Source: Candidatus Latescibacter sp. (GTDB lineage Bacteria > Latescibacterota > Latescibacteria > Latescibacterales > Latescibacteraceae). From it: DNA of 40,303 nucleotides. Of this stretch, positions 17,235-40,221 are shown piece after piece. The position numbers and the translations under genes were made by a program. Location: the NCBI GenBank assembly GCA_030692375.1, contig JAUYCD010000192.1, forward strand, positions 1 through 40,303, written 5' to 3'. The notes under the pieces are model-generated. The model saw only the letters and a list, made by a program, of their open reading frames with translations. It made no database searches and was not told where the DNA came from. Each line of letters begins with the position of its first letter. The stretch's first letter is position 1.

Positions 17235-17264
17235 TAAATTTTTTAATTGACACCTTTTTGAATT

Positions 17265-17324
17265 TTAGATCATTTCTCTGAATTCATCTACGGTTATACC
17301 AGCCTGCCGCAGAATAGTCTGCTC
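17265..17324 (-). pseudogene. C-terminal scrap of a HicA toxin gene
   Basis: Directly after the HicB stop, 19 codons read as the end of a HicA protein (QTILRQAGITVDEF), matching the family's usual last helix, followed by TAA at 17267-17265. The N-terminal two thirds, including the catalytic His, are missing. The frame differs from the ATGA-overlap frame that an intact hicA would use. This is inferred from family resemblance of a short stretch. Confidence 0.55.
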
Positions 17325-17535: not shown

Positions 17536-17566
17536 TTCTCTCTCCTTGAATAATGAAGAAAATATT

Positions 17567-19213
17567 TCAAAACCTCGCTATCGCATATAGCCCAGAGAAA
17601 TTATACTTGATTCCAGGCTCGATGTTCCATGTATTTTTCGGCGGTTTCACTTCTATTTTCGGAACAGTAAATATGGCATCAACGATATTGTAGAGATAAA
17701 CCGCCACTGCGGTACCGATTAAGATTGATTGTATGGTTCCAGTGGAGGATACCTTGTTGTATTTTGCGTTCATTTCTGTCCTGGCCGTTTGTATCTCGCC
17801 GGGTATTACTGCGTTTTTATATGTTACATAGGCATCATCATATTTCTTCCGGGCGTCGTTCGCACTGAGAGTCGCGCCGACCGCACCGGCAAGGGCGGCG
17901 ATCTGGAGAACGCTTATGAATGCGCCCTTGCCCTTGTATTCGGCGTAATACTGGCCGCTTCCGGGGAAGACGATGCTTTTCAAAAGCGCTTTGTTCTTAG
18001 TTTTGGGAATAATAACCGGAGAGATATTCAGTGAGGTGGAAGGGCTGACTGTTACCTGTTCCCTGTGCGTTTCGTACCCCATTCTCTTGAGGGCGATTTC
18101 ATGCACGCCTTCGGCGACGGTGAAATCCCGTAAGGGTGTTTCACCTGCGTTTTTGCCGTCGATAGTGACAACAGCCCCATTGGGGCGGCTTTCGACAGCA
18201 ATTTTGACCAGAGCGGCGAGGGCATATCCGATTTCTCTTTTTTCACCGGAGGAAAGACTGATATTCTGCTGGAAGTCGGTGTATCCCTGGCGGGTAATAG
18301 TAACCGTATAACTTCCTTGGGGAAGCTCCCGGTCATCGAGGGGAGTCTTCCCGATCTCTTTCCCGTCAATGGAGACTGTCGCACCATCCGGCTTTCCTTT
18401 AAAAGTGAGCCTCCCGAATGCAGTGAGGTTATAGGACAGTTTGTGCTGTTTTCCCGGCTCGATGACAATCTCTTTCGTAAAATCCTCATATCCGGCGTTC
18501 GCAATTACAACTGTACACCGTCCCGGAGCAAGCGCATGATATTGCACCGGCGTCTGCCCGATGCTCTGCCCGTTTATCCGCGCTTCGGCGGAAGCGGGGG
18601 TTCCCTCTATGGAGAGATATGATATTTCCGGCTGAGCGGCGGGCTGGGAAACACCGGGGAGCGTTCTTTGCATAGGTTTTATAGGCTCAGGCAGTCGAAC
18701 GCCGGTAAGTAGTTCATGGCCGACAAGCGGAAGAATATCTAGGACGCCGTCAATCTTTCCCTGATGTCTGAGGCTCGCGGAGCGGATGACTTTGGAAGAT
18801 TCGACATCCACGATACGGCAGGAAATGATGTAAGTTTCCCCGACCAGCCCCACCGAGCCGATGATAATCAGCTGCACCGAGAGCAGTCTCCCGAATGTCA
18901 CCGCACAACTGTCATCGGAGCAGAGAGCGTCCTGCATTTTGAATTGATCCAGAATCTTGTCCATCTGGGAGCGTTCGAGGAGAGAGTATTTTTCTTTCAG
19001 TTTAGCGCTCTGGTTGACAAGAATTTCAGAGATACCTGAATAGAGGGTTTCGGTCAGGGTTTCCGCCTCTATTTCGGAGATGCCCATACCTTTCAGTTTC
19101 ATGATAGCGATGCTGTAAGGTTTTTCGCTCTGGGCGTAAGAAATCGGTGAGGCCGCCAGAAAGATAGCGGCGGCGAGGATGCCTGCAAGAAAAGACAATG
19201 GTTTATGGTACAT
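17567..19213 (-). CDS. PEGA-domain envelope protein with CsgG/LpoB-like N-terminus
   Basis: 548 residues. A Sec signal peptide (about 1-27, ending SYAQ) is followed by an N-terminal domain like the CsgG/TolB-type group (about 30-180: IAIMKLKGMGISEIEAETL, LLERSQMDKIL, DVESSKVIRSA). Then come three PEGA domains (about 198-400), each with a PxGAxVxIDGKxxGxTP-like core. A C-terminal region with two hydrophobic segments (FPGSGQYYAEYKGKG) resembles the DUF5683-type tail. PEGA domains are extracytoplasmic and often bind wall or surface polymers. Its function is not known; an envelope assembly or stress-sensing role is inferred. The ribosome site is weak. Confidence 0.8.
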   Translation of the reverse strand: MYHKPLSFLAGILAAAIFLAASPISYAQSEKPYSIAIMKLKGMGISEIEAETLTETLYSGISEILVNQSAKLKEKYSLLERSQMDKILDQFKMQDALCSDDSCAVTFGRLLSVQLIIIGSVGLVGETYIISCRIVDVESSKVIRSASLRHQGKIDGVLDILPLVGHELLTGVRLPEPIKPMQRTLPGVSQPAAQPEISYLSIEGTPASAEARINGQSIGQTPVQYHALAPGRCTVVIANAGYEDFTKEIVIEPGKQHKLSYNLTAFGRLTFKGKPDGATVSIDGKEIGKTPLDDRELPQGSYTVTITRQGYTDFQQNISLSSGEKREIGYALAALVKIAVESRPNGAVVTIDGKNAGETPLRDFTVAEGVHEIALKRMGYETHREQVTVSPSTSLNISPVIIPKTKNKALLKSIVFPGSGQYYAEYKGKGAFISVLQIAALAGAVGATLSANDARKKYDDAYVTYKNAVIPGEIQTARTEMNAKYNKVSSTGTIQSILIGTAVAVYLYNIVDAIFTVPKIEVKPPKNTWNIEPGIKYNFSGLYAIARF

Positions 19214-19559: not shown

Positions 19560-21971
19560 TTACTGCCCCATGCTCCCTATCGGCACCGGCTTGGGGATGT
19601 GCTTGGCAACCCAGTTGCACTCGATGAAGCTTGGATGTCCGGCCACCCCGAACCTGGAGACCGCGCGCATTTCAAGGCGGTTGTTCCCGCTGTGCAGCCG
19701 CCAGGTGTAATGGTCGTCCGAATCCACCCATCTGCCGTCCTCGGTGCGCACCTGGAAGGTTTTGAAGCTGGGGGTGAACGTGGTCATGACGATGAACACC
19801 ATGTCGCCGTTGATTTCCGGCACAGCCTCCCAGCGCACCTGGCTCAGGGTCGGCCAGAAATCTGCTTCACGGTCGGTGTGGCGCGAATACTGGAGCTTGG
19901 GCGGAGCGAGACGGTCGTACCAGTTCAGGTAGCCGTCCCAGGGCCACTGGATGTTCCCCTGCTGGAGCGGCTCGGGAAGCGAAGTGGTGGAGAAATCGTT
20001 CCGGGGCATCATGCGCATGAATTCCACATTCACATAGTAGCCGCCCCAGACCGGATGGGCAAGCTCGATGCGCGGGTCGGTGGTGGAGAAGGAGATGGGC
20101 AGGCGCTTGAAATCGAGCGGAAGAGTCCGCCATGCCGAAGGCGGTTTCATCCAGTCGATGGGTGTTTTGACCCCGTACATCTCGTAGTAAGCCTTGTGGC
20201 AGTCATAGAGGCTCAGCGGGACGCCGGTGTTCTTGTCGTAGCAGTAGATGTCCACTCCCTGGGTGGGATCGAGGTAGACCCATTTCTGGAAATCGTTCGA
20301 CCATACTTCCACCACCTCGTGGGCGATGATGTTCACATGGCGGGCATGGAAACCCATTACTGTCAATATGTGGGACAGGTAGGCGGCGAACTGGATGCAC
20401 ATGCCGCCTCCTCCGATAGACTCTGCGCGCTCGATGATGTCCACCACGTTCCATTTCGGATATTCGACTGCTGGCGAGCCCCAGATCCATCGCCGGGAAG
20501 CGTAATCCAACGCCCGGACGATGATGTCGAACTCGCTGCCTGCGCCCTCTTTCAGTTTAACGAGGTCTTCGCGTTCGATGACCGTCTTGTTCGCAGGCTC
20601 ATCAGCGGACTGGTAGGCGAACCCGGTGGAGGAATAGCGGATTTCCGGGTTGTAATAATCCCTGACCATGATGTTGGCGGGGACTTCCATCCTGCGGTTG
20701 ATTTCACGGTCCACCGAAACCGATTCGACCGTGGGGGATTTGAGCGGGTCGGTGGTGGAGAGAACAGCCCGCCACTGGATATACCGTACTTTCGGCATGG
20801 TCACCGAACGCTCGGGGTCCCAGTGGGAAGGCGGCATTCCCACCCTTCCCCTGGGCACAACTGTCGCGGTTCCCCCGGAGGCAAGGGTGACCCACTGCGA
20901 CCAGTCGGCCTCGCTCAAAGGGTCCATGGACAGCCCGGCGCGAATCTGCCAGGAAATCTGCGTTCCGGCGGGTGTTGAACCTTTGCAGGTCAGGGTGAGC
21001 TTTTCCACCTCGGTGAAAGGGACGAGTGCGGCGGGTTTGTCCGGCTCCGCCCAGAGGTCGATCACCGGGGATATCAGCGTCCCCTCGGAAACATACTTCT
21101 GGAGATTGAGCCGCGCTGTGTATTCTCCTGCCACGCCGTTCTTATCGCGCTCGAGAGCTCCGTGCATATCATTCAAATTGTCTATACCGAGCATCCCGAT
21201 CAGGCTGGTGGAGGATGCGTTCAACTCGGAGGGATGCAGTCCCTTGCCGGTGATGGTGAATGTTTTGCCGCCGTTTACGCTGATCATGGAATGGTTGCCG
21301 ATGATTTTCGGCGGCGCCGTGGGAACTTTGAACTCGTCACGGCCCCTGATAAGAAAGCTGATGCCGCTGTCTACTCCCGCACGGGGAGCGAGTCCCAGTA
21401 AGACAGGGTCGCCGCCTCCCGCCTTGTACTCGTCGGCGCGGGCGATAAGGAACACATAGCCACTCTCCATGTCCTTTGCGTCCGGGCAGGCGAAGGTGAT
21501 CTCGTTATCGCCCTTTTTGAGCCAGGAAGGCTGGATGGGAACGTAGGCATACTGTTCGGTGGTCGTGTAGGTGAAGGAAGTGGTATTTCCGTTGACTGTA
21601 ACTTTGAGAGGCGGTTTCTTGGGCGAGCCCCAGCCGACTGTGAAGAACACCACGGTGGCAGCTTCGCACCGGGGGTCGTCCAGAGCGAGAATTTTTTTTA
21701 TTACCCGGTCGCCGTACACCGGCTCGGTGAAAGAGCCTTTGTTGCTGGTTCCGGAGCCGGGGGCGTCGTCCTCGATGAGCACATGGTTCCAGAGCTTGAC
21801 CGCGCTCTCGCCCTCACGCATGACCTGTTTGGCGAATCCCCTGTCATAGGCTGACTGGGCCGGTGCAGTCTGTTTCACCGTGAGCATCCTTCCGGGCGCC
21901 GCAGCCGCGGAAGTTGCACCTGCGGCGACCATAAGCACCGCCGCTGTGAAAAGAATAAGTAACCCTCTCAT
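19560..21971 (-). CDS. Secreted transglutaminase-like superfamily protein
   Basis: 803 residues with a Sec signal peptide (about 1-25, ending in an Ala-rich cleavage site). Residues 40-430 look beta-rich, with an immunoglobulin/IPT-like segment near 224-245 (TFTITGKGLHPSEL). The transglutaminase-like core is near 465-620, with Cys525 (GGGMCIQFA), His551 (AHEVVEVW) and Asp568 (YLDPTQG) as the triad. A beta-rich tail follows. Such domains are cysteine proteases or amidases, or carry out cross-linking or deamidation; the substrate is unknown. A strong AAGGAGG site precedes the start. The gene is flanked on both sides by repeat blocks and seems to be a single transcription unit. Confidence 0.85.
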   Translation of the reverse strand: MRGLLILFTAAVLMVAAGATSAAAAPGRMLTVKQTAPAQSAYDRGFAKQVMREGESAVKLWNHVLIEDDAPGSGTSNKGSFTEPVYGDRVIKKILALDDPRCEAATVVFFTVGWGSPKKPPLKVTVNGNTTSFTYTTTEQYAYVPIQPSWLKKGDNEITFACPDAKDMESGYVFLIARADEYKAGGGDPVLLGLAPRAGVDSGISFLIRGRDEFKVPTAPPKIIGNHSMISVNGGKTFTITGKGLHPSELNASSTSLIGMLGIDNLNDMHGALERDKNGVAGEYTARLNLQKYVSEGTLISPVIDLWAEPDKPAALVPFTEVEKLTLTCKGSTPAGTQISWQIRAGLSMDPLSEADWSQWVTLASGGTATVVPRGRVGMPPSHWDPERSVTMPKVRYIQWRAVLSTTDPLKSPTVESVSVDREINRRMEVPANIMVRDYYNPEIRYSSTGFAYQSADEPANKTVIEREDLVKLKEGAGSEFDIIVRALDYASRRWIWGSPAVEYPKWNVVDIIERAESIGGGGMCIQFAAYLSHILTVMGFHARHVNIIAHEVVEVWSNDFQKWVYLDPTQGVDIYCYDKNTGVPLSLYDCHKAYYEMYGVKTPIDWMKPPSAWRTLPLDFKRLPISFSTTDPRIELAHPVWGGYYVNVEFMRMMPRNDFSTTSLPEPLQQGNIQWPWDGYLNWYDRLAPPKLQYSRHTDREADFWPTLSQVRWEAVPEINGDMVFIVMTTFTPSFKTFQVRTEDGRWVDSDDHYTWRLHSGNNRLEMRAVSRFGVAGHPSFIECNWVAKHIPKPVPIGSMGQ

Positions 21972-26690: not shown

Positions 26691-27635
26691 ATGAAAGAAC
26701 GATATATCCGTGAAATACTGGCCGCTTTCCCCTATCCCATCGTCGCCTTCTTCTCCAAGCTCCGCACCGACGAGTGCTTCGACCCCGGCCCGCTCAGGCT
26801 CAAGTACATCCTCTCGACCGGGGAGACCATCGCTCGCTTTTTAGGCACAGTCACACTCTGCGAGTGCCGGGATTACCTCGAACGGCATCCGGATTCTCCT
26901 CCACCGCCGCATCTGACGGCTGATTTCAGCGCCCGTTTCAGCCGTCCCGCCTGGGGAACATGGATGCACTTCACCCGTGAGGGGCTGCGCTGGCTCTCTG
27001 AAGCGGACGCCGAAATTACAATGCCGGAGATGGCTGGCCTTTACTTCAAAAAGGGGGGAGGGGAAGCCGAGCCGGCCGCCGCCCTTGGGAAACTGCTCAC
27101 CATCCGTAACGGGCTGAACCATGAGAAAATCCAGGCGTTCCGCCCCTCCGATTACCGGGAACTCTGCGAGGAGACCTGCGCCCACCTTGAAAGTGTCCTG
27201 GAAGCGATGGAGTTCCTCCTCAATTACGAGTTGGTGTTCATCAACCAGATCGAGGTGAATAAGAAGCGGAAAGCGCCGCCTCTTTTCCTGCACCGCCTGA
27301 GCATGCTTATGGGCAGCTCCGACGCCTTTCCCGGTGACCGCAAGCAGATGAACGAGTTCATGGATTCACGCTCCATTTTCCTCCTGAATGTGGAAGCGAG
27401 AAAACATCTGAACCTTACGCCGCTCCTTGTATATGAATCTGCCGCCGGAAAGGCCCCGGACATTTTCTTCTTCAACGGTTTCGATAAACCCGATGCAGTG
27501 GAATATTCCGCCTGCAATCACGGCGGCGGTTTTGTGAGCGGCAATTCCGACCAGGCCGGGGATATCGCCCTGGAGATCGGAAACATTCTTTCCCTCTTTA
27601 GCGCAAAGCCAATGGGAGGTGAGACGCATGGATAA
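26691..27635 (+). CDS. Gene A: protein with HEPN-like RNxxxH motif
   Basis: 314 residues, no signal peptide or membrane segment. I know no named family for the whole protein. The first 190 residues look all-helical, with RPAWGTW at 85-91 and R139-N140-x3-H144 (TIRNGLNHEK), the R-x4-H arrangement of HEPN ribonuclease-type domains. Residues 230-290 form a beta-like module with LTPLLVY and FFFNGFDK. The same two-part layout is found in genes D (34988) and E (37528). AGGAGG precedes the ATG. The last 8 bases overlap gene B, so they are translationally coupled. HEPN assignment is by motif only; it could be a helical adaptor without nuclease activity. Confidence 0.7.
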   Translation: MKERYIREILAAFPYPIVAFFSKLRTDECFDPGPLRLKYILSTGETIARFLGTVTLCECRDYLERHPDSPPPPHLTADFSARFSRPAWGTWMHFTREGLRWLSEADAEITMPEMAGLYFKKGGGEAEPAAALGKLLTIRNGLNHEKIQAFRPSDYRELCEETCAHLESVLEAMEFLLNYELVFINQIEVNKKRKAPPLFLHRLSMLMGSSDAFPGDRKQMNEFMDSRSIFLLNVEARKHLNLTPLLVYESAAGKAPDIFFFNGFDKPDAVEYSACNHGGGFVSGNSDQAGDIALEIGNILSLFSAKPMGGETHG

Positions 27636-30600
27636 AGATACCCCGGATTTCGATTTCCTGGATGACTTTTTCAGGAGTGCCGAGAAAGGTAAAACGCCCC
27701 TCGGAAGGACAGCGCCTTTCAAGTTCCTCGATCCCTACGGCCCGGAAGACAAAGGTATTTATTTCGGGCGGAAGTTCGAGGTGGCGGAAGTATACGCCCG
27801 TTTTTTCAAGACCCGCATTCTCGTAGTGTACGGCGAATCCGGCTCGGGGAAGACATCCCTCGTGCAGTGCGGATTGCGCTCGGAGATTCCCCCGGAGGAC
27901 GCCGCATTCCTCACCATCCGTTCCGCTTCAGATCCCCTTGAAGCGTTGGAACGTGAGCTGGTGAAATATACAGGGTTCGGAGAGGATGCCCCGGAATCCC
28001 TCAAGGAAATGCTCAAGGAGGCAATCTTCCGCAAGGGCAAGCCGCTGGCCCTCCTGTTCGATCAGTTCGAGGAATTCTTTCTCTTTCAGCCGCCGTCCGT
28101 GCGGGAAGCGTTCGTCCGGGAGCTTGCAGCCTGGGTTGAAGCCGACCTCAACATACGGGTGATCTTTGTCATCCGGGAAGAATACCTTGCCCGCATGACC
28201 GAACTGGAAACGGTTCTCCCGGAACTCCTTCAGAACCGCATCTGGGTGCGGCGCATGTCCCGCGAGCAGGCAAAGGAAGTTATCATAAGCCCCTGCCGCG
28301 CCTGCAATGTTGGCATCGAGGAAGGCCTGGCCGACGCCCTTCTAGACGACCTCACCCGGAGCGGCGGAGTTGAGCTTCCCATCCTCCAGGTGGTCATGGA
28401 CTCCCTCTATCGGCGGGCAATTGCGAACGATCCGGATTCCCCCTCGCTCACCATCTCCGAATACCAGGAGATGGGAAAGGTGGAATCCATTCTTGCAAGG
28501 TTCATCGAGGAGACGGTGGAGAGCCATCCCCAGCCGGAACGGGTGCGCCAGGTGCTGAAAGCCCTCGTCACCGCCGAAGGCACCAAGCGCATCAGCTCAC
28601 TCGAACAGATAATCGAGAACGCCGCTCCGTTCGGAGAGCCTCTCGACGCCGAAACGCTCGTTCCCATCCTGCGGAGCCTCATTGACCGCCGGGTGCTCCG
28701 TGAGGACGCCGACAGCCGCCTCTACGAGCTCCGTCATGACGCCCTGGCAATTCCCATCCGCCAGTGGATGACCGGCCTTGAACAGGAGCTTGTGGAAGTG
28801 CGCCAAACCCTCGAAAACCGCTTTAAGGAATATCAGCACCGGGGCACAGTCCTCGACGCCCAAACCATTGCCTGGATCGCTCCGTACGAGGCCCGTCTGC
28901 GGCTCAACCCGGACATGCGGTTCTTTGTGGAGACGAGCAGGCGGGCGGCGGTGCGTAAGCGGCGGATCGCGCTCACCCTCGCGGGTGCCGCGGTGGGAGT
29001 GTTCGTGATCGTGGTGTCCGCGCTCGGTCTCCTGAGCTACAAGAAATACCTCGATTCCGAGCGGAATATGGGATATGTGTTCACCGAGCGGGCACGGCAG
29101 GCGTATGAAACGCAGGACTATAACGCGGCGAGGCTGAATTCGCTTTACGCGCTCACAAAGTTAAAGGGGAAAGATACGGAAACTAGCCGGGCAGAGGCGG
29201 CGGGGTACTTTACCCTGAGCCCGGAGTATCCGGTCGTTTTCGATGTGCAGAGGAGTATTCCGGTACAGAGAAGTCTGACCGGGCTGGACTTTTCGCCCGA
29301 TGGAACAACCATTGCACTCAGCCAATTTTATGATAATTCGGTGACCCTGTGGGATGTCCGCACTGGAAACCTGAAAGCAACTTTGACCGGTGGAGTCGGG
29401 CAGGTTATGCGCCAAAGATTCTCTCCCGACGGAAGCCTCATCGCTGCTTGCTTTACAGCGGATCGGGCAGTTCGGATTTGGGATGCACGATCATATAAAT
29501 CCGTAGCGTTGATCGAAAATCTCGCCGAGAATCCCTGGAACGTGTCTTTTTCTCCAGATGGACGGCTTCTCGCGTTCGGCCTCACAGATGGAACCATCCA
29601 TATATGGGACCTGCCGGCGAACAAGGAGTTCGCTCGATGGAATGCGCATACCGGACCTGTCTGGATGGTGGTTTTCTCGCCGGATAGCACCACCATTGCC
29701 TCCAGTTCCGCTGATGGAAGTGTTGGTCTTTGGAATGTGCGAACAAGGGAGTTGATCAAGCGATTTAAGGGTCATATCGGGAATGTATGGGGACTCTGCT
29801 TCTCACCGGACGGGAAAACGCTCGCTTCTAGTGCTGATGATGGAACAATAAGGATATGGGATGTCGCCGCAAGAGACTCTCTCAAGGTGCTCAGAGGTCA
29901 TAATGCGATTGCGTGGGATGTCGATTTCTCTCCCGATGGGAAATTACTGGTTTCAGCGGCTTTGGATATCAGGTTCTGGGATACCCGGACATGGCAGCAG
30001 AAGGCGGTCCTGCCAACTGGAGACAGTGGAAAGGTGAAATTCTCTCCCGATGGAACCATGGTCGTTTCAGGCGGGATGCTCCGTTTCTGGGATGTACGCA
30101 CCGCCGCATCCCTGAAATCCGCTGTGGGACATGGCGACTCTGTTCTGAGCCTTGCATTTTCCCCGGACGGATTTTTCCTTATCACTGGCTCACGGGACCG
30201 CACGCTCCGGCTTTGGGAGTTGAAAACCGGCCGCCAGACCGGGATATGGGAAAATTCAGCCGGGCCTATATCAAGTGCATGTATCTTCCCGGAAGGCAAT
30301 AGAATAGCTGTCGGTTCGAATGATGGTATTGTGAAAATATTAAATATATCGCTCGGGGAGATCAGCCTTACCCTTCCCGGTCATACCGGTCAGGTCCGAT
30401 GCCTCTGCCTGTCGCCCGGCCAAGAGTTCCTTGCTTCGGCCTCGGCTGATTCAACCGTGCGGATATGGAATCTTCAAACAGGCAATTCGCGAGTGCTCAG
30501 GGGGCACGCTGGGAGGGTGAATAGCGCCTGTTTCTCACCGAACGGGAGTTTGCTGGCTACCGGTTCGGACGATGGGACCATCCGGCTCTGGGATAGTCTT

Positions 30601-32358
30601 TCCGGCCGCAATCGGGGAGTACTATCCGGCCGTTTCGGGAAAATCCTTAACGTCTTCTATGCATTGAACGATACCGCGCTGGTGTCTGTTTCCGGCGACA
30701 AAACCGTTGCGGTATGGAATACTGCAACGCTTGGGATTTCAGCGTCTTTCAGAGAAGACCGGGGCGAGCCTCAAACCGCGGCGGTTTCCACGGATGGTGG
30801 CCTCATTGCCCTTGGCTTGGCAGAGGGCGGGGTGATGTTATGGAACTTGCGTTCTCAAACACGAATCGCCTTTATCCCGACCGGCGCTTCCGCGGTCACC
30901 GCACTCGGATTCAGTCCGGACGGCCGTTTGCTCGCCGCGGGCACGGCAGAGGGTGGTATTCGGGTCTGGGATGTGTCTCCCGGTTTGCGGGTCACGCGGA
31001 ACAGGATACCAGAATCTATTTTTGGCGGAGTAATTTATTCTCCTGATGGATCCGTTCTTTGGCTGATGATGAGAGATAGAATTTACGCATGGGATGTGCG
31101 GAAGGAATACCCGAAGAGGAGCATTTCCATACCCGGTTTACGATATACTTCCACAGTCACTGCAGAAAAAATCGCATCTGTCAACACCGGCAATATAGTC
31201 CAGGTCTGGGATGTCCAGACCGGCAGAGTAATCACTTTGCCAGAGGCGGTAATAGCCAATGGATTTGTTGATTTATCCCCCGATGGCTCCGCGATCATCT
31301 TCCCTGGAACGGATGGCGTCGCCCGTATTTGGGACCTGTCAGCGAAACGTATACTACATACGTTGGGAGGAGGGTATTTAGGTGGGAGTTCGTGGGTATT
31401 CTATGGAAACTTCTTTTTACCGGACGGTACGCACGCCATGACAGTCGGAGCGGACGGATGGGTGCAAATCCTGGATATGCGGGACGGAAAGTTGAATAAA
31501 GTGTTCATGATTCCTGCATCCCCCCGGGCTTCGGCGATATCAAGCGACCGTACGTCGCTTGCTGTTATGGATTCCTTGCAGACCATCCATGTATGGGATA
31601 TCTGGACCGGCCAAAAGCGCGCTGTTATCAATCCCCGCATCTCCATTGTACGGTCAAGGTCGCTTTCACTTTCACACGATGGCTCGCGTCTCCTGGTCGC
31701 TAGCGCTGACGGCTCTGTGCAGGTGTTCAATGTGAAAGCAGGCAATATGGTGAGTTCTTTTCATGCCCCCGCCGTTGACATGAATTCGGCGATCAGGCTC
31801 TCCCCCAACGGTGCCCTTGTGGTTGCCACCGGTAGCGACCACATCATCCGGTTCTGGAACGCGGATACCGGGAAGCCGATGATTTCCTTGACTGGACATA
31901 ACGGAGTAATAATGGATCGGAATGTAGCATTCTCTCCCGACGGCTTCCGGTTAGCGATATCCGATCCCAGCAGTTTCTTCCACATCTGGGACATGGAAAC
32001 CGTTTCCCTTCTTTCCTCGACTCCAATTCAAAAACTGATCACTCACGCTGAAACCCAATCCCGGCTGACTATGAAGCGGTTCAAACTGGAACCAGATACC
32101 CCGAAGCCTAATCTCTTCGGCACGCCGCCCAAACCTCCCGTCTGGCCTGCGCGCCATCCCTTCCACTGGCTCGATAGTGCGGATAAAGGGGACGTGAACA
32201 CCATGCTCAAGCTTGGAGCCATCTACGAGCGGAGCGGGGAAACGGACAAAGCGCTTCAGTGGTACCAGAAGGCGGCGCAAAAGGGAAACATGGAAGGGAA
32301 GAAGAGGCTGGAGGCCTTGCAAACGAAGTTCAAAACTACATCCGGCAACCCGAAATAA
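27628..32358 (+). CDS. Gene B: STAND-type NTPase with transmembrane helix and WD40 repeats
   Basis: 1576 residues. Walker A GESGSGKT is at 69-76 and Walker B ALLFDQFEE at 141-149; the DQFEE form is typical of the nSTAND1 group. A winged-helix-like region follows (about 300-390, RRVLREDADSRLYELRHDALAI). A single transmembrane helix lies near 443-468, then about twenty WD40 repeats (about 530-1470), each with an FSPDG-type turn and a W-D/N pair, enough for up to three propellers. A Sel1-like repeat ends the protein. STAND proteins act as ATP-driven switches that assemble when a sensor binds a ligand; here the propellers are the likely sensor. ATG 27628 has GGGAGGT seven bases upstream; GTG 27619 is less likely. 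The cytoplasmic NTPase and membrane-separated repeats suggest sensing across the membrane, which is inference. Confidence 0.88.
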   Translation: MDKDTPDFDFLDDFFRSAEKGKTPLGRTAPFKFLDPYGPEDKGIYFGRKFEVAEVYARFFKTRILVVYGESGSGKTSLVQCGLRSEIPPEDAAFLTIRSASDPLEALERELVKYTGFGEDAPESLKEMLKEAIFRKGKPLALLFDQFEEFFLFQPPSVREAFVRELAAWVEADLNIRVIFVIREEYLARMTELETVLPELLQNRIWVRRMSREQAKEVIISPCRACNVGIEEGLADALLDDLTRSGGVELPILQVVMDSLYRRAIANDPDSPSLTISEYQEMGKVESILARFIEETVESHPQPERVRQVLKALVTAEGTKRISSLEQIIENAAPFGEPLDAETLVPILRSLIDRRVLREDADSRLYELRHDALAIPIRQWMTGLEQELVEVRQTLENRFKEYQHRGTVLDAQTIAWIAPYEARLRLNPDMRFFVETSRRAAVRKRRIALTLAGAAVGVFVIVVSALGLLSYKKYLDSERNMGYVFTERARQAYETQDYNAARLNSLYALTKLKGKDTETSRAEAAGYFTLSPEYPVVFDVQRSIPVQRSLTGLDFSPDGTTIALSQFYDNSVTLWDVRTGNLKATLTGGVGQVMRQRFSPDGSLIAACFTADRAVRIWDARSYKSVALIENLAENPWNVSFSPDGRLLAFGLTDGTIHIWDLPANKEFARWNAHTGPVWMVVFSPDSTTIASSSADGSVGLWNVRTRELIKRFKGHIGNVWGLCFSPDGKTLASSADDGTIRIWDVAARDSLKVLRGHNAIAWDVDFSPDGKLLVSAALDIRFWDTRTWQQKAVLPTGDSGKVKFSPDGTMVVSGGMLRFWDVRTAASLKSAVGHGDSVLSLAFSPDGFFLITGSRDRTLRLWELKTGRQTGIWENSAGPISSACIFPEGNRIAVGSNDGIVKILNISLGEISLTLPGHTGQVRCLCLSPGQEFLASASADSTVRIWNLQTGNSRVLRGHAGRVNSACFSPNGSLLATGSDDGTIRLWDSLSGRNRGVLSGRFGKILNVFYALNDTALVSVSGDKTVAVWNTATLGISASFREDRGEPQTAAVSTDGGLIALGLAEGGVMLWNLRSQTRIAFIPTGASAVTALGFSPDGRLLAAGTAEGGIRVWDVSPGLRVTRNRIPESIFGGVIYSPDGSVLWLMMRDRIYAWDVRKEYPKRSISIPGLRYTSTVTAEKIASVNTGNIVQVWDVQTGRVITLPEAVIANGFVDLSPDGSAIIFPGTDGVARIWDLSAKRILHTLGGGYLGGSSWVFYGNFFLPDGTHAMTVGADGWVQILDMRDGKLNKVFMIPASPRASAISSDRTSLAVMDSLQTIHVWDIWTGQKRAVINPRISIVRSRSLSLSHDGSRLLVASADGSVQVFNVKAGNMVSSFHAPAVDMNSAIRLSPNGALVVATGSDHIIRFWNADTGKPMISLTGHNGVIMDRNVAFSPDGFRLAISDPSSFFHIWDMETVSLLSSTPIQKLITHAETQSRLTMKRFKLEPDTPKPNLFGTPPKPPVWPARHPFHWLDSADKGDVNTMLKLGAIYERSGETDKALQWYQKAAQKGNMEGKKRLEALQTKFKTTSGNPK

Positions 32359-32369
32359 CGAGGAATACC

Positions 32370-34835
32370 ATGCCAGAAATACGCCTGTCGTTCACCACAA
32401 TGGGGGCCACGGTAAAGCCAGAGCCGGGGAAGCTCTTCCTGGACACCGGGAACAATCTTTGCCCGGGCATCATCGACCACCACCAGCTCTCCCATGAGAC
32501 CTGCACCGCCCTGCTCGCGCTCCAGCGGAAGGAGCTCTACACGGAATGGCTTGCGGGACTCCCGGAAGTTGAGGTTGTCCTGCATCTCCAGCCGGATATC
32601 GATTGCATTGCCGCGCTCTATATTGTGGATGCCATGCTGAACGGAAAAAATATCGGCGAGGAAAACCTTGAAAAACTCGCACGGTATGCTCTCGAGATGG
32701 ATATGGGCCGGACTGAGCGTCCGGACCTCGAGCGCCCGAGCCTTTACAACCTCCTCACCGCGCGGTTACAGATCATCATGGACGAGTTCGCCTGCCCGGA
32801 AGAGAAAATCCCAGAGGTCCTGAAACAAGTTCAGGATGACACGTGTCATGCCGAACTCGTTTCGGCATCCGATGCCCGCTGCCGGGAGATGAATACGCGC
32901 ATGGCGCGGGAGGGATTGGAAGTCGTTTCGAGATTTCTGAACCTTCTCGAACGCCGGGAAATCAAAGAGTTCCGCCTGAACGGCGACGCGGGGGATGAGG
33001 CGCTCTTCATTGCTGAACGGAAATACCTGCAGGATGACTATCAACGGTATTGCTCCGACCTGGGCGATTTTAACCGGGTAACCATCGTCCAGCCCCGGAT
33101 TCCTCTTCTGGGGCTCAACACCTCTGAGGTGAAAAAAGCGCTTATCTACCGGGACCCGAGCGCCTCGCTCTTCAAGCTTTGGGCGCGGCACGACATCTTC
33201 CATGCCGGGAGCGCGGAGGGCTTCACCGTGCTCCTGGTCATCTGGAACGGCGGCCCCCGGAAAGATAAGCGCTACATCATGAGCACCGATCCGCAAGGGA
33301 AATACTGCCTCCGTTTCCTCGGGGATGTGCTCAACTCCCACGAGGCCCGCAAGCGGGAGATTCTCGGTAAAGGTCAGGAAGGGCCGAACCGTCCCGGTTA
33401 CAAACTTCCCGACCCCTGGTATGATGGCCGGGCGCATAACTACACTATCGTGGACACCCCCCATGACGGTACAGTGCTCGACGAAGAGGAGGTCATATCC
33501 ATCTTCACCCATTTCATCACGGAGCACATCTTCCTGGAAACGCGCCTGCATGCCAACAGGATACACGTCGTTTTCCCCATGCGCCTGAGTCCGGGTATCA
33601 CACTCGATACCCGAAAGGTTGAGGAGGCAGGATTCGGGCCGGTTCCTGTGGATCGTATGTTTATCCAGACCTTCACCACCTCCTTTATATCTCTGTTTTT
33701 CTCCAACCGTTTCAACATCCGGCTGTTTTCCAAGCCGCTGGACGAGCGGAAGGAACTGATGGTCACTGCCGGGGCGCTCGAGGAGCGCTTCCCGGTGCTG
33801 GTGGAGTCTTGCCACCTGCTCGCCTACGGCAATATCCTGCTCTATTCCGTGCAGCTCCGGGTTGAGGATGACCGCCTTCAGACCATCCATGAGGTAAACC
33901 GCTTCCTGTACGCCCCCGATTTGGTCCAGGATTCTCCCGATGATTGGAACAACGCTTTCCTCCTTGACTCGCTTTCCCCGTTAGGACTGGAAGAGGAATA
34001 CTTCATCAGCAAGCCGTTTATCCACGTCGATCTTCTCCTTGAAAACTTCCATTTCTTCCGTGAGCCGGAACTGGTCTCCCCGGTTATCAACGCATTCCTC
34101 TCTGGCGAGGCGACCTCCATTCCAAGCCGTCCGCACGGCAATGTGATTCTCCCCTGGTCAGAGTACTGCGCAGTCGGGATGAATTTTACTCACTATCTCT
34201 CCTTCCAGAACCTCTCCGACCCGGAACTGAGCAAGAAAAGCATTCTCCACATTTTCACTGTAGACCGGGTGCATGCGTTCTACCTTTACCTATTTGTCAT
34301 TCTCAAGAAGGTGGTCCTCCGGGACCTCTCGGAACGGTTCAGCCGCCTGGACCTCATGCGCACCGACCGGAAAACCGCCCGGGAATCCCGGAGGCTTGAA
34401 GCCGATGTACTGAACTACATCAACACCATCAACCTCCGCCACATCACGAACGATTGCCTTGCCCGTGAGGTCTTCCTGAAGCTGCACGAGGTGAACGCCA
34501 TTTCAGAATCTTTCGAGGAAATATTCACCTCCGTGCAGCAACTCAATGCGTACCATGACGCACGTATGCAGAAAAAGCAGAGCACGCAGATAGACCTCCT
34601 GCAGGCGATATTCCTTGTGGGAGTGGCAGCATCAGTGGTGTCCCTGGGCGCCATGCCGGGCGCAAAGATTGTTACCAGTATCATCCGCGAACCCGACGGG
34701 AAAATTCTATGGGATTCAGCATTGACAGCCTTCGAGATGAGCGATCTGATCAATTGGGGATTGCTGGCGGTGCTGAGCGGGGTAGGTATATGGCTGCTCA
34801 TTAAGCTGCTGTTTTTACTGTTTAAAAAAGACTGA
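32370..34835 (+). CDS. Gene C: membrane protein with DHH-like motifs in permuted order
   Basis: 821 residues, not assigned to a family. Near the N-terminus FLDTGN (23-28, Asp25) and IIDHHQ (34-39) resemble motifs II and III of DHH phosphoesterases, and LHLQPDIDCIAA (71-82) resembles motif I (HxxPDxD). The usual order is I-II-III, so the fold would be circularly permuted. Residues 150-168 come from an in-frame REP-like insertion. The long middle is unassigned. Near the C-terminus a helical stretch leads to two transmembrane helices (about 742-762 and 793-818) with a Lys-rich end; this end also recalls CorA-like proteins. The start at 32370 has a GAGG site; it begins 11 bases after gene B. Confidence 0.7.
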   Translation: MPEIRLSFTTMGATVKPEPGKLFLDTGNNLCPGIIDHHQLSHETCTALLALQRKELYTEWLAGLPEVEVVLHLQPDIDCIAALYIVDAMLNGKNIGEENLEKLARYALEMDMGRTERPDLERPSLYNLLTARLQIIMDEFACPEEKIPEVLKQVQDDTCHAELVSASDARCREMNTRMAREGLEVVSRFLNLLERREIKEFRLNGDAGDEALFIAERKYLQDDYQRYCSDLGDFNRVTIVQPRIPLLGLNTSEVKKALIYRDPSASLFKLWARHDIFHAGSAEGFTVLLVIWNGGPRKDKRYIMSTDPQGKYCLRFLGDVLNSHEARKREILGKGQEGPNRPGYKLPDPWYDGRAHNYTIVDTPHDGTVLDEEEVISIFTHFITEHIFLETRLHANRIHVVFPMRLSPGITLDTRKVEEAGFGPVPVDRMFIQTFTTSFISLFFSNRFNIRLFSKPLDERKELMVTAGALEERFPVLVESCHLLAYGNILLYSVQLRVEDDRLQTIHEVNRFLYAPDLVQDSPDDWNNAFLLDSLSPLGLEEEYFISKPFIHVDLLLENFHFFREPELVSPVINAFLSGEATSIPSRPHGNVILPWSEYCAVGMNFTHYLSFQNLSDPELSKKSILHIFTVDRVHAFYLYLFVILKKVVLRDLSERFSRLDLMRTDRKTARESRRLEADVLNYINTINLRHITNDCLAREVFLKLHEVNAISESFEEIFTSVQQLNAYHDARMQKKQSTQIDLLQAIFLVGVAASVVSLGAMPGAKIVTSIIREPDGKILWDSALTAFEMSDLINWGLLAVLSGVGIWLLIKLLFLLFKKD
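32817..32870. repeat. REP-like double hairpin inside a coding region
   Basis: The CCTGAAAC..GTTCAGG hairpin and the ATGCCGAAC..GTTTCGGCAT hairpin of the intergenic family occur here inside gene C. The length keeps the reading frame and encodes LKQVQDDTCHAELVSASD. Confidence 0.85.
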
Positions 34836-34884
34836 AGATAACGACCATAAGGGAATCGGCGCCATTTCAATCTTTGGAAAAAAC

Positions 34885-34912
34885 TTGCGCTCCTTCAATA
34901 TACTCGTATATT
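34885..34912 (+). promoter_or_regulatory. Possible internal promoter before gene D
   Basis: TTGCGC (34885-34890), 16 bases, TATATT (34907-34912), in the only sizeable gap (152 bases) of the five-gene cluster. An AATATACTCGTATATT near-palindrome overlaps it. The match is weak. Confidence 0.3.
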
Positions 34913-34987
34913 ACGGTATCACCATGCTTCCAATCACAATCGGTTCTTTACACCATGCAGCGCCCTTACATTTAGGGAAGGTACATC

Positions 34988-37531
34988 ATGAACGAGCATG
35001 AGGCGCAGCGCTTCCTCAACGAACAGCGTTACCAGGCAGAGCTGCCGTTCCCTGTCTCGGCAGTGTTCACCCACTATGCAAGATCATCGAGCAAGAACTA
35101 CGCTCTCCGCTCTTTACAGCTTGTCGCTACCGCCCAGTCCACTATACGCTACACCGCCATAGTCGCCGCATGCGACTATGCCGCCAATCCCGACGCCGAT
35201 GAGGGCATCCTGAACTGGCTCAGGCAGGAATGGCTCGGCGGGAAAAAGCCGAGCTTCGGGACCTGGTACGGCGCGCTCATGCGGCTCCTCGCCGAATCCG
35301 GGAAAAGCTGGAAGCATCCCTTTGTCCCCGAATTCGGGGCCATCGACCGCGAACTTCTTGAGAAAAAAATCCAGCCGCTCATCCATAGCCGCAACGTGGA
35401 GATCGGGCACGCGGAATACTACGAAGCGCTGGCTCTTAAACACTTCGTTGAGTTGCAGGAGGAGAACCTCTTCGCGGTAATGGAGCAGTTCTCTTTCCTC
35501 GCCAGGTATCCCCTGGCGTTCGCGGAGGTGGAGGACGACTACGAACCACCTTCGCCGGGGACGAAACAAGCGGTGAATATCTGCCGTGGTGCATCTCACA
35601 ATTTCGCACGGTACACAGTTGCGCCTTCCCATCCTCTCCCTCCCGGAGCGCCTTTCATCTGGAACCCGGAGTACACGGGGATTCTCACCCTCTCGCCATT
35701 CCTGATCTACGGCCGCGCCACAACCGACGCCGAACAGAAGGAACGAGTAAAGGGAGTCGCCCATATCCAGGGTCTCATGGTGATGAACGGAGTCACGAAA
35801 GGCTCGCCGGTCTACACGAGCGTGGACGCCGAGGCGCAGTTCTCGCTCGATTCGTTCGAATTCCCGCCGAAAGAGCGCATTCAAGAGCAGGTGGATAGCG
35901 CGCTGAAGAAAGGGCTGGATGTACCCTCCCGCATGGAAACGCGGCTCAGTGAGGATGAGAAGGAGCTGTTCGTTCGGACCACGGACTATGTCGAGCCGGG
36001 ATTTGAAAAAGAAAGCGTGCCCCTGCAAAAGAAGAAGCCTTCTCTGAAAACAGTGCTAGTATCAGCGATACTCGGCGTGCTTGTTCTCATCGTGGGATTC
36101 GCGCTGTATTCACGTTTCACTGCTCCCAAACAGCAAATCAGGTCCATCGCTGTGCTTGCTTTCCGAAATATAAGTGATGATCCAAAGCAAGAGTATTTAT
36201 GTGAAGGTATAGCGGAAACCATCATTAATACCCTGACACGCGTTGATGGATTGAATGTTACCGCCCGAACATCAGCGTTTTCATTCAAGGGCAAGAATGT
36301 TACAATCGCTGAGATTGGAAAGGAACTGAATGTGGAAACCGTCCTTGAAGGCAGTATCCAGAAAGAAGGAGATAACATTCGTATCACAGCGCAGCTTATC
36401 AAGGTTGATGATGAATATCATCTCTGGTCGGATACATATAACCGTAAAATGGAGAGCATTTTTGCCATTCAGGATGAAATATCTCAGGCAATTGTGAGAG
36501 CGCTGAAAGGCAGGCTTTTAAAAGAAGAAAAAACAGCGATTAAGAAAAGGTATACCGAAAATACGGAAGCCTTTGAGCTATATCTACAAGGCCTTTCTTA
36601 CTGGAATAAACGGAATGAGGAAGGGATGAAGATAGGAATTCAACACTTTCAACAAGCCATTTCGATAGACCCATTCTATGCACTGGCTTATGCGGGAATA
36701 GCAGACTGCTATAACATGCTTGGGTACTATAGCTACCTTAGTCCCAAAGAGGCGTATCCACGGGCAAAGATTGCTGCAGAGAAAGCCCTGAAGATTGACG
36801 ATACACTTGCAGAAGCTCATGCATCTCTCGGGTGGGTGAGATTATTTTTTGACTGGGATTGGCCTGAAGCACAAAAAGAATTTAAGCAAGCCATTGATTT
36901 GAATCCAAACTATGCGGAAGCTCACTCTTGGTTTTCTGTTTATTTAAGAATTACGGGACAATTTGATGATGCCATTGCTGAGATTGATCGAGCTCAGGAG
37001 CTGGATCCTCTTTCGGTCAATATTATTACTACGGCGGGGAATGTACGAACAATCGTAGGACGATATAATGAAGCAATGGACTATTACAACAAGGCACTAG
37101 AAATGGATCCCTCCTTTCCATTAACATATTTTCACCTGGGACAGAATAACATTTATACTATGAGGTGGGAAGAAGCAATTGCCTCTCTCAATGAGTTCAT
37201 GATCCTTTCAGGAAGTACACCACTCTCAATAGGCTTTCTTGGATATGCGTATGCTATGTCAGGCCGTAAGGATGAAGCATTAAAGATGCTTAAGCGGTTA
37301 AACGATCTTTCGATGGAGAGGTATGTTTCCCCATTTTTCAAAGCATTAATATTCATGGGGCTTGGCGAAAAGGATCAAGTATTTAAGTATCTGGAACAAG
37401 CATATGAAGATCGAGAGACTTGGCTTGTTACTAATCAATTTAAACTAATATTTCAAAGTCTTCGTGACGACCCAAGATTTACCGCTTTAATAAAAAAGAA
37501 TCGAATTCCCGGAATAAGGGCTGTGCCATGA
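34988..37531 (+). CDS. Gene D: HEPN-like / transmembrane / TolB-like / TPR protein
   Basis: 847 residues. The N-terminal helical domain (about 1-185) has PSFGTW at 88-93 and R135-N136-x4-H141, matching gene A. A beta-like module follows (about 230-290; LSPFLIY, MVMNG). A transmembrane helix is at about 355-376. Next is a TolB/FlgO-like domain (about 384-510; IRSIAVLAFRNIS, LCEGIAETI, VLEGSIQKEGDNIRITAQLI), a domain often linked to adenylate cyclases or kinases with TPRs. At least six TPR-like repeats fill 530-830. Base composition becomes clearly more AT-rich from about 36120, just after the membrane helix, as if the outer half came from another source. A GGAAGG site lies before the ATG. The stop overlaps gene E as ATGA. 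Confidence 0.82.
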   Translation: MNEHEAQRFLNEQRYQAELPFPVSAVFTHYARSSSKNYALRSLQLVATAQSTIRYTAIVAACDYAANPDADEGILNWLRQEWLGGKKPSFGTWYGALMRLLAESGKSWKHPFVPEFGAIDRELLEKKIQPLIHSRNVEIGHAEYYEALALKHFVELQEENLFAVMEQFSFLARYPLAFAEVEDDYEPPSPGTKQAVNICRGASHNFARYTVAPSHPLPPGAPFIWNPEYTGILTLSPFLIYGRATTDAEQKERVKGVAHIQGLMVMNGVTKGSPVYTSVDAEAQFSLDSFEFPPKERIQEQVDSALKKGLDVPSRMETRLSEDEKELFVRTTDYVEPGFEKESVPLQKKKPSLKTVLVSAILGVLVLIVGFALYSRFTAPKQQIRSIAVLAFRNISDDPKQEYLCEGIAETIINTLTRVDGLNVTARTSAFSFKGKNVTIAEIGKELNVETVLEGSIQKEGDNIRITAQLIKVDDEYHLWSDTYNRKMESIFAIQDEISQAIVRALKGRLLKEEKTAIKKRYTENTEAFELYLQGLSYWNKRNEEGMKIGIQHFQQAISIDPFYALAYAGIADCYNMLGYYSYLSPKEAYPRAKIAAEKALKIDDTLAEAHASLGWVRLFFDWDWPEAQKEFKQAIDLNPNYAEAHSWFSVYLRITGQFDDAIAEIDRAQELDPLSVNIITTAGNVRTIVGRYNEAMDYYNKALEMDPSFPLTYFHLGQNNIYTMRWEEAIASLNEFMILSGSTPLSIGFLGYAYAMSGRKDEALKMLKRLNDLSMERYVSPFFKALIFMGLGEKDQVFKYLEQAYEDRETWLVTNQFKLIFQSLRDDPRFTALIKKNRIPGIRAVP

Positions 37532-40221
37532 TCATCACCCTCCAAAAGCTCCTCCAGAAATCCAAGCATGTCACCGAACCGCGCGACGCCCATGCGCTAG
37601 CTCTGGACCTCGTGGAGAGCATGCTCCGGCACTATGCGGTTGTGGCCATTGCCGCGTACCGTCATGCCGGGGCGCGGGACCAAAAGGTGAATCGGATTCT
37701 CTCGGAGCAGTTGCCAAGACCTTCCATGGGATCGTGGAAGAATTTCCTCCAAATGCTGACGGCCTCGGATAAGACTCTCTTTCCCGATGGGTTCCGGGAG
37801 AAATTTCTCGCACCGCTGACAAAAAAAGTATCCCACCCGGACATTTCACCGGCATACTCGGGATTGCGGAAACTCGCCGACCAGGATGTGTTTTCCTCTC
37901 ACGAAGCTCCGGCCCAATCTGAAGCTGCACCCTGTACGCCATTGGAATTCTTCGATGCCGCGGTCGCCTATCGAAACCGGTTCGCCGGGCATGGAACCCA
38001 TGAGTTGCCTGATGCGGCGGTTCAATTCGCTCCGCAGTTCCTGAAAGGGGCGGCGTCGCTCTGTACTCATCTCAACACGCTGTGGTCGGCCTGTCCGGTG
38101 TATGTAGCCAAACAGGACAAACTCTATGGGCGGACGTTCTTCCGCCTGACTCCCCTTATGAAAGCGGAGGGAATCGGCGAGTTGCAGGCGGCAGCTCACG
38201 GAATGGAAGAGGATCGGCTCTATATCTGTTTTGGTGATAAAAAACATCCAGAGGTCGAGAGCCTGTATCCCGCCGCCTTATGGGAAGAGGATGACATTCT
38301 TTTCGCCAATGGGACCAAAGGTTTGATAGACATTCATTACATCGGATATGCCAGCCAAAGGAGCTTCGAAACCTCTATCTATGAGGAAGATTTCCGGGAA
38401 TTTCTCTGTCCGTTTTCGCCGCCCCGTGAGACCGAAGCGGCGAAACCGGCCGTAGCTACTGCTCCCGCTGTGGTGTCGAGAGTGAAGGGGAAATGGAAAC
38501 CCATTATCGTGTTAATTGGAGTGATATTGCTGATCATAGCTGCGGTCGGAGGATATTTCAGGTTCGTTCATAAAGGAAATCAGGAAATAAAGTCTATTGC
38601 CGTGCTTCCGTTCATTGATGATAGTCCAGGGAAAGACCAGGATGCTTTATGCGAAGGAATCGCGGGAGAGATTCGTAACTCCCTCGTGAATATTTCTGAT
38701 CTGGAGGTGAGCGGCCGGCAATCTTCTTCAATGTTCAAAGGAAAGAATACCTCCTATAGCGAGATCGGCCGGAAGTTGAATGTTGTATCAATCCTCGAAG
38801 GGAGCGTGCGGAAGGAAGGCGACAATCTGCGGATTATCGCGACTCTCATCCGGGCCTCGGATCAGACCCAACTTTTCTCATTCGATTATGATCGGAAAAC
38901 GGAAAATTTGTTAACCATCGAGAAAGAGATCGCCCGCTCCATCGTGGATGAGCTTCAAGTCAAGCTCGCGAAACAAGAGCGGGCGGCGATGGAGCGGCGG
39001 CCAACGAACAATCCGGAAGCCTATATGTACTATGTGAAAGGCGCCGGTTATCTAATCAAAGGGTATACGCTGGAAAACGTATCCAACGCTCAAAAGATGT
39101 TTGAGAAGGCGGTAGAGCTTGATAATTCTTTCGCTCTGGCATATACTTATCTCTCTCTTACTCATGCGGAATTCCATTGGTTTTATTATGACAGAACGGA
39201 AAACCGTTTGACACAAACGAGAGAAAATGCCGAAAAGGCTCTTCATCTCAACCCTCAATTGCCGGAAGCTCATCTGGCGATGGGAACGTATTATCAGATC
39301 ACCACCCAGTTCGATTCCTCTTTGAAGGAGTTTGAAGCCGCTTATCAATTAGCCCCTCGCAATGGTTTATGCCTGTACTTTTTAGGGATAAATCACCGAT
39401 GGCGCGGCAAGCTCGACCTCTCGTCGGAATATCTGGAGAAAGCGCTCAAACTGGATCCCCTCTCGCAAATGAATTATTATGAATGTGCAATCAATCTTTA
39501 TTCTATGCGCGCCTATTCGGAAGCATTACGCTATTTGGATAATGGAATCATACTGGCTCCCGAAAATGTCGACAACTATTGTCTCAAGTCGGCGATATAT
39601 ATCAGGTGGCAAGGTGACGTGCGTAAAGCACGGGCGGTCCTGAATAAGGCCCCTGTGAGTCAGGATATGCTGTTGAAATCATTTGATGGATTCAACCGGT
39701 TTATGGAATTAAACATCCTGGAAGGTCATTTTGACGAGGCATTGGAACTGCTCTCAAGAAGCTCCGGAGATATATTTGAATCCGTGTTGACTTTTAGCAC
39801 CAAAGCGCAACTGCAAGCCCAGTTGTATGGACTGATGGGTAACCGGACCCGTATGCTTGAATATTATGAATCAGCCCGCACTTTGCTTGAATCCCTGATT
39901 CAAAAGAATCCGGATTATCCTCGATACCACAGCGCCCTTGGGATTGTATATGCCGGTCTGGGACGAAAAGAGGATGCGATAAGGGAAGGGGAGAAAGCGG
40001 TGGTATTGAAAGACCTCCGGAAAGAGATGTGGATGGGAATCGGCCGAGTTGAAGACCTGGCTCGTATTTATACGATGACGGGAGAATATGAGAAAGCGCT
40101 CGACAAGATCGAGTATCTCCTGAAACAGCCGGGGACGCTCTCACCCGCCCTGCTCCGCATTCACCCGGACTGGAAACCGCTGCATGGACATCCCCGGTTC
40201 AAAGCACTCATCGCTGAATAG
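37528..40221 (+). CDS. Gene E: second HEPN-like / transmembrane / TolB-like / TPR protein
   Basis: 897 residues. The N-terminal domain has PSMGSW at 65-70 and R149-N150-x4-H155 (YRNRFAGH), equivalent to genes A and D. A longer insert (about 100-140) and a beta-like module follow (about 225-285; LYPAALWEED, LFANGTKG, YIGYASQ). A Pro/Ala-rich linker leads to a transmembrane helix at about 325-345. A TolB-like domain (about 354-480; SIAVLPFIDDSP, LCEGIAGEI, ILEGSVRKEGDNLRI) and a long TPR array (about 495-890) complete it. It is a diverged paralogue of gene D with the same domain order. The ATG overlaps the gene D stop. After the stop only a repeat start is seen before the window ends. Confidence 0.82.
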   Translation: MIITLQKLLQKSKHVTEPRDAHALALDLVESMLRHYAVVAIAAYRHAGARDQKVNRILSEQLPRPSMGSWKNFLQMLTASDKTLFPDGFREKFLAPLTKKVSHPDISPAYSGLRKLADQDVFSSHEAPAQSEAAPCTPLEFFDAAVAYRNRFAGHGTHELPDAAVQFAPQFLKGAASLCTHLNTLWSACPVYVAKQDKLYGRTFFRLTPLMKAEGIGELQAAAHGMEEDRLYICFGDKKHPEVESLYPAALWEEDDILFANGTKGLIDIHYIGYASQRSFETSIYEEDFREFLCPFSPPRETEAAKPAVATAPAVVSRVKGKWKPIIVLIGVILLIIAAVGGYFRFVHKGNQEIKSIAVLPFIDDSPGKDQDALCEGIAGEIRNSLVNISDLEVSGRQSSSMFKGKNTSYSEIGRKLNVVSILEGSVRKEGDNLRIIATLIRASDQTQLFSFDYDRKTENLLTIEKEIARSIVDELQVKLAKQERAAMERRPTNNPEAYMYYVKGAGYLIKGYTLENVSNAQKMFEKAVELDNSFALAYTYLSLTHAEFHWFYYDRTENRLTQTRENAEKALHLNPQLPEAHLAMGTYYQITTQFDSSLKEFEAAYQLAPRNGLCLYFLGINHRWRGKLDLSSEYLEKALKLDPLSQMNYYECAINLYSMRAYSEALRYLDNGIILAPENVDNYCLKSAIYIRWQGDVRKARAVLNKAPVSQDMLLKSFDGFNRFMELNILEGHFDEALELLSRSSGDIFESVLTFSTKAQLQAQLYGLMGNRTRMLEYYESARTLLESLIQKNPDYPRYHSALGIVYAGLGRKEDAIREGEKAVVLKDLRKEMWMGIGRVEDLARIYTMTGEYEKALDKIEYLLKQPGTLSPALLRIHPDWKPLHGHPRFKALIAE

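Follow-up and report, generated by a model that had tools for sequence, protein, structure and literature searches.

In Ire1 and RNase L, a kinase is joined to KEN, which is itself a HEPN domain. The HEPN superfamily is recognised by an R-x4-6-H motif with a polar residue after the R, together with an upstream E-x3-[KR] in helix 2 (Anantharaman et al. 2013, PMC3710099). Conflict systems built on nSTAND1 NTPases and the 'EAD principle' have been described by Kaur et al. (2020, 2021; PMC7159879, PMC8195603). Type III CRISPR systems of Bacteroides use NrN to cleave SAM-AMP and CorA as their membrane effector (Chi et al. 2023, PMC10600005). Here we analyse a cluster of five genes, A to E, in a stretch of 40,303 nucleotides (the window) from Candidatus Latescibacter sp. 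(contig JAUYCD010000192.1 of assembly GCA_030692375.1), which an earlier note had tentatively read as a single membrane-associated complex of a STAND sensor and HEPN-like proteins. Since A and B recur as a unit in another phylum, adjoining a gene of a phage-defence type, the cluster is probably a variant of a membrane-anchored defence or stress switch. The locus is not one conserved operon but a composite of two blocks, laid out as follows.

26691 to 27635, plus strand: gene A, 314 residues, a stand-alone HEPN-like module with a C-terminal beta-rich part and no transmembrane (TM) helix
27628 to 32358, plus strand: gene B, 1576 residues, nSTAND1 NTPase, TM helix, WD40 array and Sel1/TPR-like tail
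32370 to 34835, plus strand: gene C, 821 residues, DHH phosphodiesterase-like domain fused to a CorA-like domain
34836 to 34987, plus strand: C-D gap of 152 bp, separating A-B-C from D-E
34988 to 37531, plus strand: gene D, 847 residues, HEPN-like module, TM helix, TolB-N/FlgO-like region and TPRs
37528 to 40221, plus strand: gene E, 897 residues, HEPN-like module, TM helix, TolB-N-like region and TPRs

All five reading frames are open throughout, and B starts with ATG (an alternative GTG lies at 27619). The coordinates and spacings reported earlier were reproduced exactly: A and B overlap by 8 bp, B and C are 11 bp apart, 152 bp lie between C and D, and D and E overlap by 4 bp. The C-D interval is the sole real gap in the cluster. 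GC content is 0.556-0.567 in A-B-C, 0.484 in D and 0.503 in E, the upstream part of the window being at 0.52. Its spacing, its GC content and the distribution of its genes among genomes (below) divide the cluster into two blocks, A-B-C and D-E; on the same evidence we regard A and B as the conserved core, C as a likely co-expressed partner and D-E as the second block. A promoter-like site at 34875-34904 in the C-D gap is a weak consensus match, and promoter and terminator scans gave results near chance. The contig stops 82 bp past E, within a repeat, and genes further downstream are beyond view.

Residues 30-406 of B match nSTAND1 (PF20703, E 8.5e-55), and both the Walker A motif (GESGSGKT) and the Walker B-like motif (LLFDQFEEFF) are intact. 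The only TM helix of B (451-469) is followed by a WD40 array at about 550-1470 (E 4.9e-106) and by a short Sel1/TPR-like tail, so that the WD40 STAND switch proposed earlier for B is confirmed. A profile built from the modules of A, D and E was searched in 297 genomes of the Desulfobacterota, the phylum of L019 (one of the relatives of C described below). One strong match was obtained, in genome G506 (E 1e-54). There a homologue of A (48% identity) lies just ahead of, and overlaps in the same way as here, a homologue of B (42% identity overall) that has the STAND-TM-WD40 layout and a PPVWPxxHPFHWL tail in common with B. The pair, together with an AAA_15/AAA_21 ATPase and a 73-residue stub, splits gcvPB (E 2e-217) from gcvPA (E 1e-22); the ATPase scores best with a PtuA model (1e-28) and also matches AriA (1e-21). 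Judged from this context, the G506 cassette has the look of a mobile defence-type insertion, a single case. None of the 59 relatives among the 60 genomes of the cluster's own phylum carries A, C or D; A and the module of D occur in the cluster's own genome only. A, C and D are thus sparsely distributed within the phylum. Searches of viral contigs and plasmids with C, A, D and E gave no match.

The proposal that one module is used three times, in A, D and E, reflects true homology. Using the module of E alone as query, other members were found down to 3e-17, and 19 proteins align on common P-x-P, PSxGxW, RN..H and L-x-P motifs. The module comprises about 290 residues with a helical part and a beta part, and no sequence match to Pfam (2025 copy) or PDB was obtained for any member. 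Profile and alignment evidence make the A/D/E module a genuine family, one that Pfam does not list. In D and E it is followed by a TM helix (355-373 and 326-344, respectively), a TolB-N/FlgO-like region and TPRs, domain searches agreeing with the fusions read earlier from these genes. CadC and HilA receptors have this layout, except that the module here takes the place of their cytosolic output domain. The C-terminal TM-TolB-TPR half thus resembles CadC-type and cyclase-TolB-TPR one-component receptors, unlike which D and E carry the HEPN-like module in place of a cytosolic DNA-binding or cyclase domain.

Among 343 genomes of the phylum of L021 (another relative of C), the module of E was found in 15, with many paralogues, nearly all of them N-terminal in giant proteins. 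All five of the giant proteins tested (L063, L065, L067, L068 and L069) are Ser/Thr kinases; three end in repeats (WD40 in L063 and L067, TPR in L069), and several are tandem paralogues. Other fusions are module-kinase-multi-TM, kinase-module-kinase with the module internal, and PCMT-module. The last is encoded at L081:256-2562, where a PCMT (protein-L-isoaspartate methyltransferase) domain precedes the module. No publication on a bacterial HEPN-like domain carried by WD40 kinases was found in the collection of papers searched.

In the cluster's own genome a paralogue of D (L017, G000:C26) stands alone, adjoining a sigma-70-family gene. Its module is 93% identical in amino acids to that of D, but its TolB-TPR half differs and it lacks the TM helix. 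The L017/D pair is a case of module exchange between receptors. Starting at the ribosome-binding site, the two genes share about 86% DNA identity as far as about codon 336 and about 70% beyond, and 96 synonymous as against 24 replacement codon differences were counted. From this identity step and the synonymous excess, the module travels as one piece and is subject to purifying selection.

As in the nSTAND1/EAD systems, an nSTAND1-clade STAND NTPase with a repeat sensor is present in the cluster. EADs are small, mostly helical domains found in several copies per locus or genome, terminal on varied signalling parts (PMC8195603), and the module follows this pattern, with three copies in the cluster and one elsewhere in the genome, and with kinase, TolB-TPR and PCMT fusions, one of them internal. 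Unlike an EAD, the module is absent from the STAND protein B itself, is larger (helical plus beta) and contains HEPN catalytic-type motifs; moreover, its partners at the cluster are TolB-TPR receptors and a DHH-CorA protein.

The two HEPN signatures occur in the module in the order expected for the superfamily (PMC3710099), E-x3-[KR] first and then R-N-x3-5-H, each in 17 of the 19 members; the N is present in all 19 and the R in 17. The RN-x3-5-H motif is found in A (R139-N140-x3-H144), D (R135-N136-x4-H141) and E (R149-N150-x4-H155), and the helix-2 motif in A (E45xxxR49) and E (E30xxxR34). Unlike in known HEPN domains, there is an extra C-terminal beta-rich region with L-x-P...FLN...YLDY motifs. 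The likeness to Ire1 and RNase L is one of working parts only: an outside sensor, one TM helix and a cytosolic HEPN(-like) domain, to which the related bacterial kinases add a Ser/Thr kinase. Unlike in Ire1 and RNase L, the module lies N-terminal to the kinase (the order is reversed), no profile relation was found, and the RNase role of the module is putative.

Gene C had been described as a DHH-like membrane protein and possible phosphoesterase; the DHH motifs and TM helices agree with this, and the description was incomplete, since a CorA-like domain is also fused. The DHH motifs are D25-x-G27, D36HHQ, H72xxPDxD78, D111xG113 and DPWYDGR (348-354). PADLOC CorA models match residues 633-762 (6e-11) and 639-809 (3e-9), and the protein ends in two TM helices (743-761 and 799-817). 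C thus appears to join an intact DHH phosphodiesterase to a membrane domain of the CorA type known from effectors of type III CRISPR. The Pfam DHH model gave E values weaker than the cut-off for both C (0.12) and L019 (0.003). In a Foldseek search with the low-confidence AlphaFold2 model of C, the top three hits were the DHH-family yeast PPX1, the best at a non-significant E of 0.014.

Relatives of C were sought in 84,980 species genomes by a scan guided by motifs, and both tblastn and the motifs conserved in the matches themselves served as confirmation. Since a scan with a single protein works with arbitrary 8-residue words, the probes were search-only alignments of C with the DHH motifs fixed and the remainder randomised. 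The A3 probe yielded three relatives. L020, from a Clostridiaceae metagenome-assembled genome (MAG), is the sole full-length DHH+CorA relative (CorA match 2e-18). L019, from a Desulfatirhabdium MAG, is a DHH protein alone, adjoining a gene for a cyclic-nucleotide-binding protein (L019:9442-9954). In L021, from a lake MAG, the DHH part lies at the contig end, adjoining a gene for a MazG-like pyrophosphohydrolase (L021:9430-9906). The neighbours of L019 and L021 hint at nucleotide substrates. D25, D36-H37-H38, H72, D76, D78 and D111 are invariant in C and all three relatives, and the DPWYDGR...YTIVD.P block is common to the three proteins that reach it, its second half varying slightly. The L020 gene is followed (L020:6707-8982) by a DUF4145-TM protein (HEPN class, E 2.3e-5, better than the cut-off) and a 514-residue membrane protein, possibly a second kind of DHH-CorA system.

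Cas10 (PF22335) has no match in the cluster's own genome, which is 97% complete, or in that of L020 (G061). C is therefore a DHH-CorA fusion outside CRISPR, and we reject its membership of a CRISPR system in its own genome. In 399 genomes of the phylum of L020, further matches to C were by the CorA part only: two lie within type III-B (Cmr) loci, one of them adjoining Cmr1, and two are standalone. One more match, again by the CorA part only, came from 375 genomes of the phylum of L019. The standalone CorA-effector-like proteins (L035:9212-10663 and L036:8840-10300) come from two Paenibacillus-like genomes and share a neighbourhood with ABC transporter genes; no CRISPR genes were found beside them, and the CorA similarity of C was accordingly rejected as proof of defence by itself. 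The Desulfatirhabdium MAG (G060; L022-L027) encodes at least five Cas10-like proteins, which is unusually many, or is a mixed bin. C resembles the NrN-CorA protein of A. butzleri in that a DHH phosphodiesterase and a two-TM CorA-like protein form one polypeptide (PMC10600005). Unlike the CorA and NrN of type III CRISPR, it is encoded with a STAND NTPase in a genome lacking Cas10; its ligand-binding part is not detectably similar to that of CorA, and SAM-AMP is not implied. Within C we also found one further feature.

32793 to 32940, plus strand: dispersed genomic repeat, in frame at about residues 142-190, containing LKQVQDDTCHAELVSAS

It translates as LKQVQDD...ELVSAS, and at least 14 other genomic copies are present.

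The view of all five genes as one system is not supported. In G506 the A-B pair occurs without C, D and E; A and B were not found in the neighbourhoods of the relatives of C; and the D paralogue stands alone. Co-occurrence in an unrelated genome was obtained for A-B, in another phylum and with the same overlap, and not for C, D or E; homologues without a link to B were likewise found for C and D, and not for A. What stands of the earlier note is a system at the membrane that is centred on a STAND protein and includes a HEPN-like module, since A-B is conserved, a defence-type ATPase adjoins it and HEPN signatures are present.

We propose the following model, to which as a whole we assign a probability of roughly 0.4. 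The core would be a two-gene, horizontally moving STAND unit: a membrane-anchored ATP switch, B, with its output domain detached as A, a small HEPN-like protein of the cytosol. C, under the control of a nucleotide ligand, would open or depolarise the inner membrane, while its own DHH domain would remove the ligand; by analogy to NrN/CorA, the membrane lesion would have a built-in off switch. D and E, probably joined later, would be single-pass receptors that sense with TolB-N/TPR parts on the outside and carry the HEPN-like module on the inside. A signal from the envelope or an invader may lead to nucleotide exchange and oligomerisation of B, which would gather A, and perhaps also D and E by contacts between modules. 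As HEPN RNases are active as dimers, gathering would recruit the module and at the same time, if it is a HEPN domain, activate it. RNA cleavage, C-mediated membrane leak or both would then arrest the cell. STAND and kinase domains depend on ATP in the cytosol. In addition, B, its homologue, D, E and most kinases of the sample have more K/R residues on the N-terminal side of their single TM helix. On both grounds the repeat arrays most likely lie outside the cytoplasm and the modules within it, an arrangement likewise proposed for planctomycete kinases (PMC11032199). A defence role appears likelier than not. A further step, which we consider rather unlikely, is that the module represents a HEPN RNase family so far overlooked, placed at the cytosolic face of single-pass receptors (STAND-WD40, TolB-TPR and kinase) so that the Ire1 parts list is assembled independently, and that A-B-C is a CRISPR-independent membrane immune system with an RNase and a DHH-CorA channel.

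Several observations weigh against the proposed model. Just one second A-B locus was found, and no recognised defence genes lie beside the cluster within the window. The commonest setting of the module, in large Ser/Thr kinases, suggests signalling over toxin use. The RN-x3-5-H motif is lost or changed in two of the 19 members, and D and its paralogue carry Q for the helix-2 E. The module profile does not match any HEPN of known structure or any known HEPN family, so that the HEPN-like label of the earlier note was upheld for both sequence signatures and not by profile. The AlphaFold2 model of A has a mean predicted local distance difference test score of 39.8 and gave non-significant Foldseek results, providing no fold support. 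This low-confidence model puts E45 within helix 32-65, R139-N140 at the end of helix 128-140 and H144 in the loop that follows; the placement is as expected for HEPN and carries little weight. Since fold prediction failed, HEPN membership is claimed at the motif level, for which the module is named HEPN-like, and convergence of short motifs could be the source of the likeness.

Ordinary transmembrane signalling we hold to be a possible though tentative alternative. Here the module would be an adaptor or ligand-binding input domain rather than an RNase, RN..H would be structural, and B, D and E would be regulators like CadC or the planctomycete kinases, acting in envelope stress or development. 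It agrees with the many paralogues in which a usually terminal module precedes Ser/Thr kinases or TolB-TPR regions or trails PCMT, with the CadC/HilA-type downstream halves of D and E, and with the loss of the motif in some members. However, few residues of the family are as well conserved as those of the motif, two independent HEPN signatures coincide, and A-B is found in a mobile-looking insertion adjoining a defence-type ATPase. Quite improbable is a chance neighbourhood, in which A-B, C and D-E are unrelated beyond their co-orientation: every block is found elsewhere without the others, and the GC content of A-C is unlike that of D-E, but a rare module occurs three times within 13.5 kb, the B-C gap is 11 bp, A-B and D-E overlap, and across the phylum A and the module of D are confined to this genome. 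About as improbable is a reading of C as a type III CRISPR-type SAM-AMP effector, an NrN-CorA fusion captured from CRISPR or acting in trans with it, which would fit the match to CRISPR CorA models, the two distant relatives in Cmr loci and the NrN-CorA fusions in Aliarcobacter type III-B loci (PMC10600005), but not the lack of Cas10 here and in the genome of the full-length relative, the restriction of the similarity to the C-terminal part, or the standalone CorA-like genes.

Three items now have a testable identity, each lacking a family entry or known only from another setting. The HEPN-like module is a Pfam-less family capping giant kinases across many genomes of one phylum; if it is an RNase, bacterial receptor kinases would combine the same parts as the eukaryotic stress sensor Ire1. 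A-B is a two-gene STAND unit with its putative output domain in a separate, overlapping gene. The DHH-CorA fusion outside CRISPR raises the question of which other nucleotide signal such channels read.

In the remainder of the window, a protein with an FGE-sulfatase domain and a PEGA-repeat protein are encoded as neighbours of the cluster at 16302-19213 on the minus strand; FGS domains are effectors in other conflict systems. At 19560-21971, also on the minus strand, an 803-residue protein without a Pfam or PADLOC match is encoded. A palindrome like the repetitive extragenic palindromic (REP) elements, CCCCCTTAANAAGGGG, occurs at six intergenic sites of the window (15976, 22558, 25033, 26529, 26585 and 40288), with 11 matches over both strands against 0.09 expected by chance. 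The contig break falls inside one copy of this palindrome, directly past gene E.

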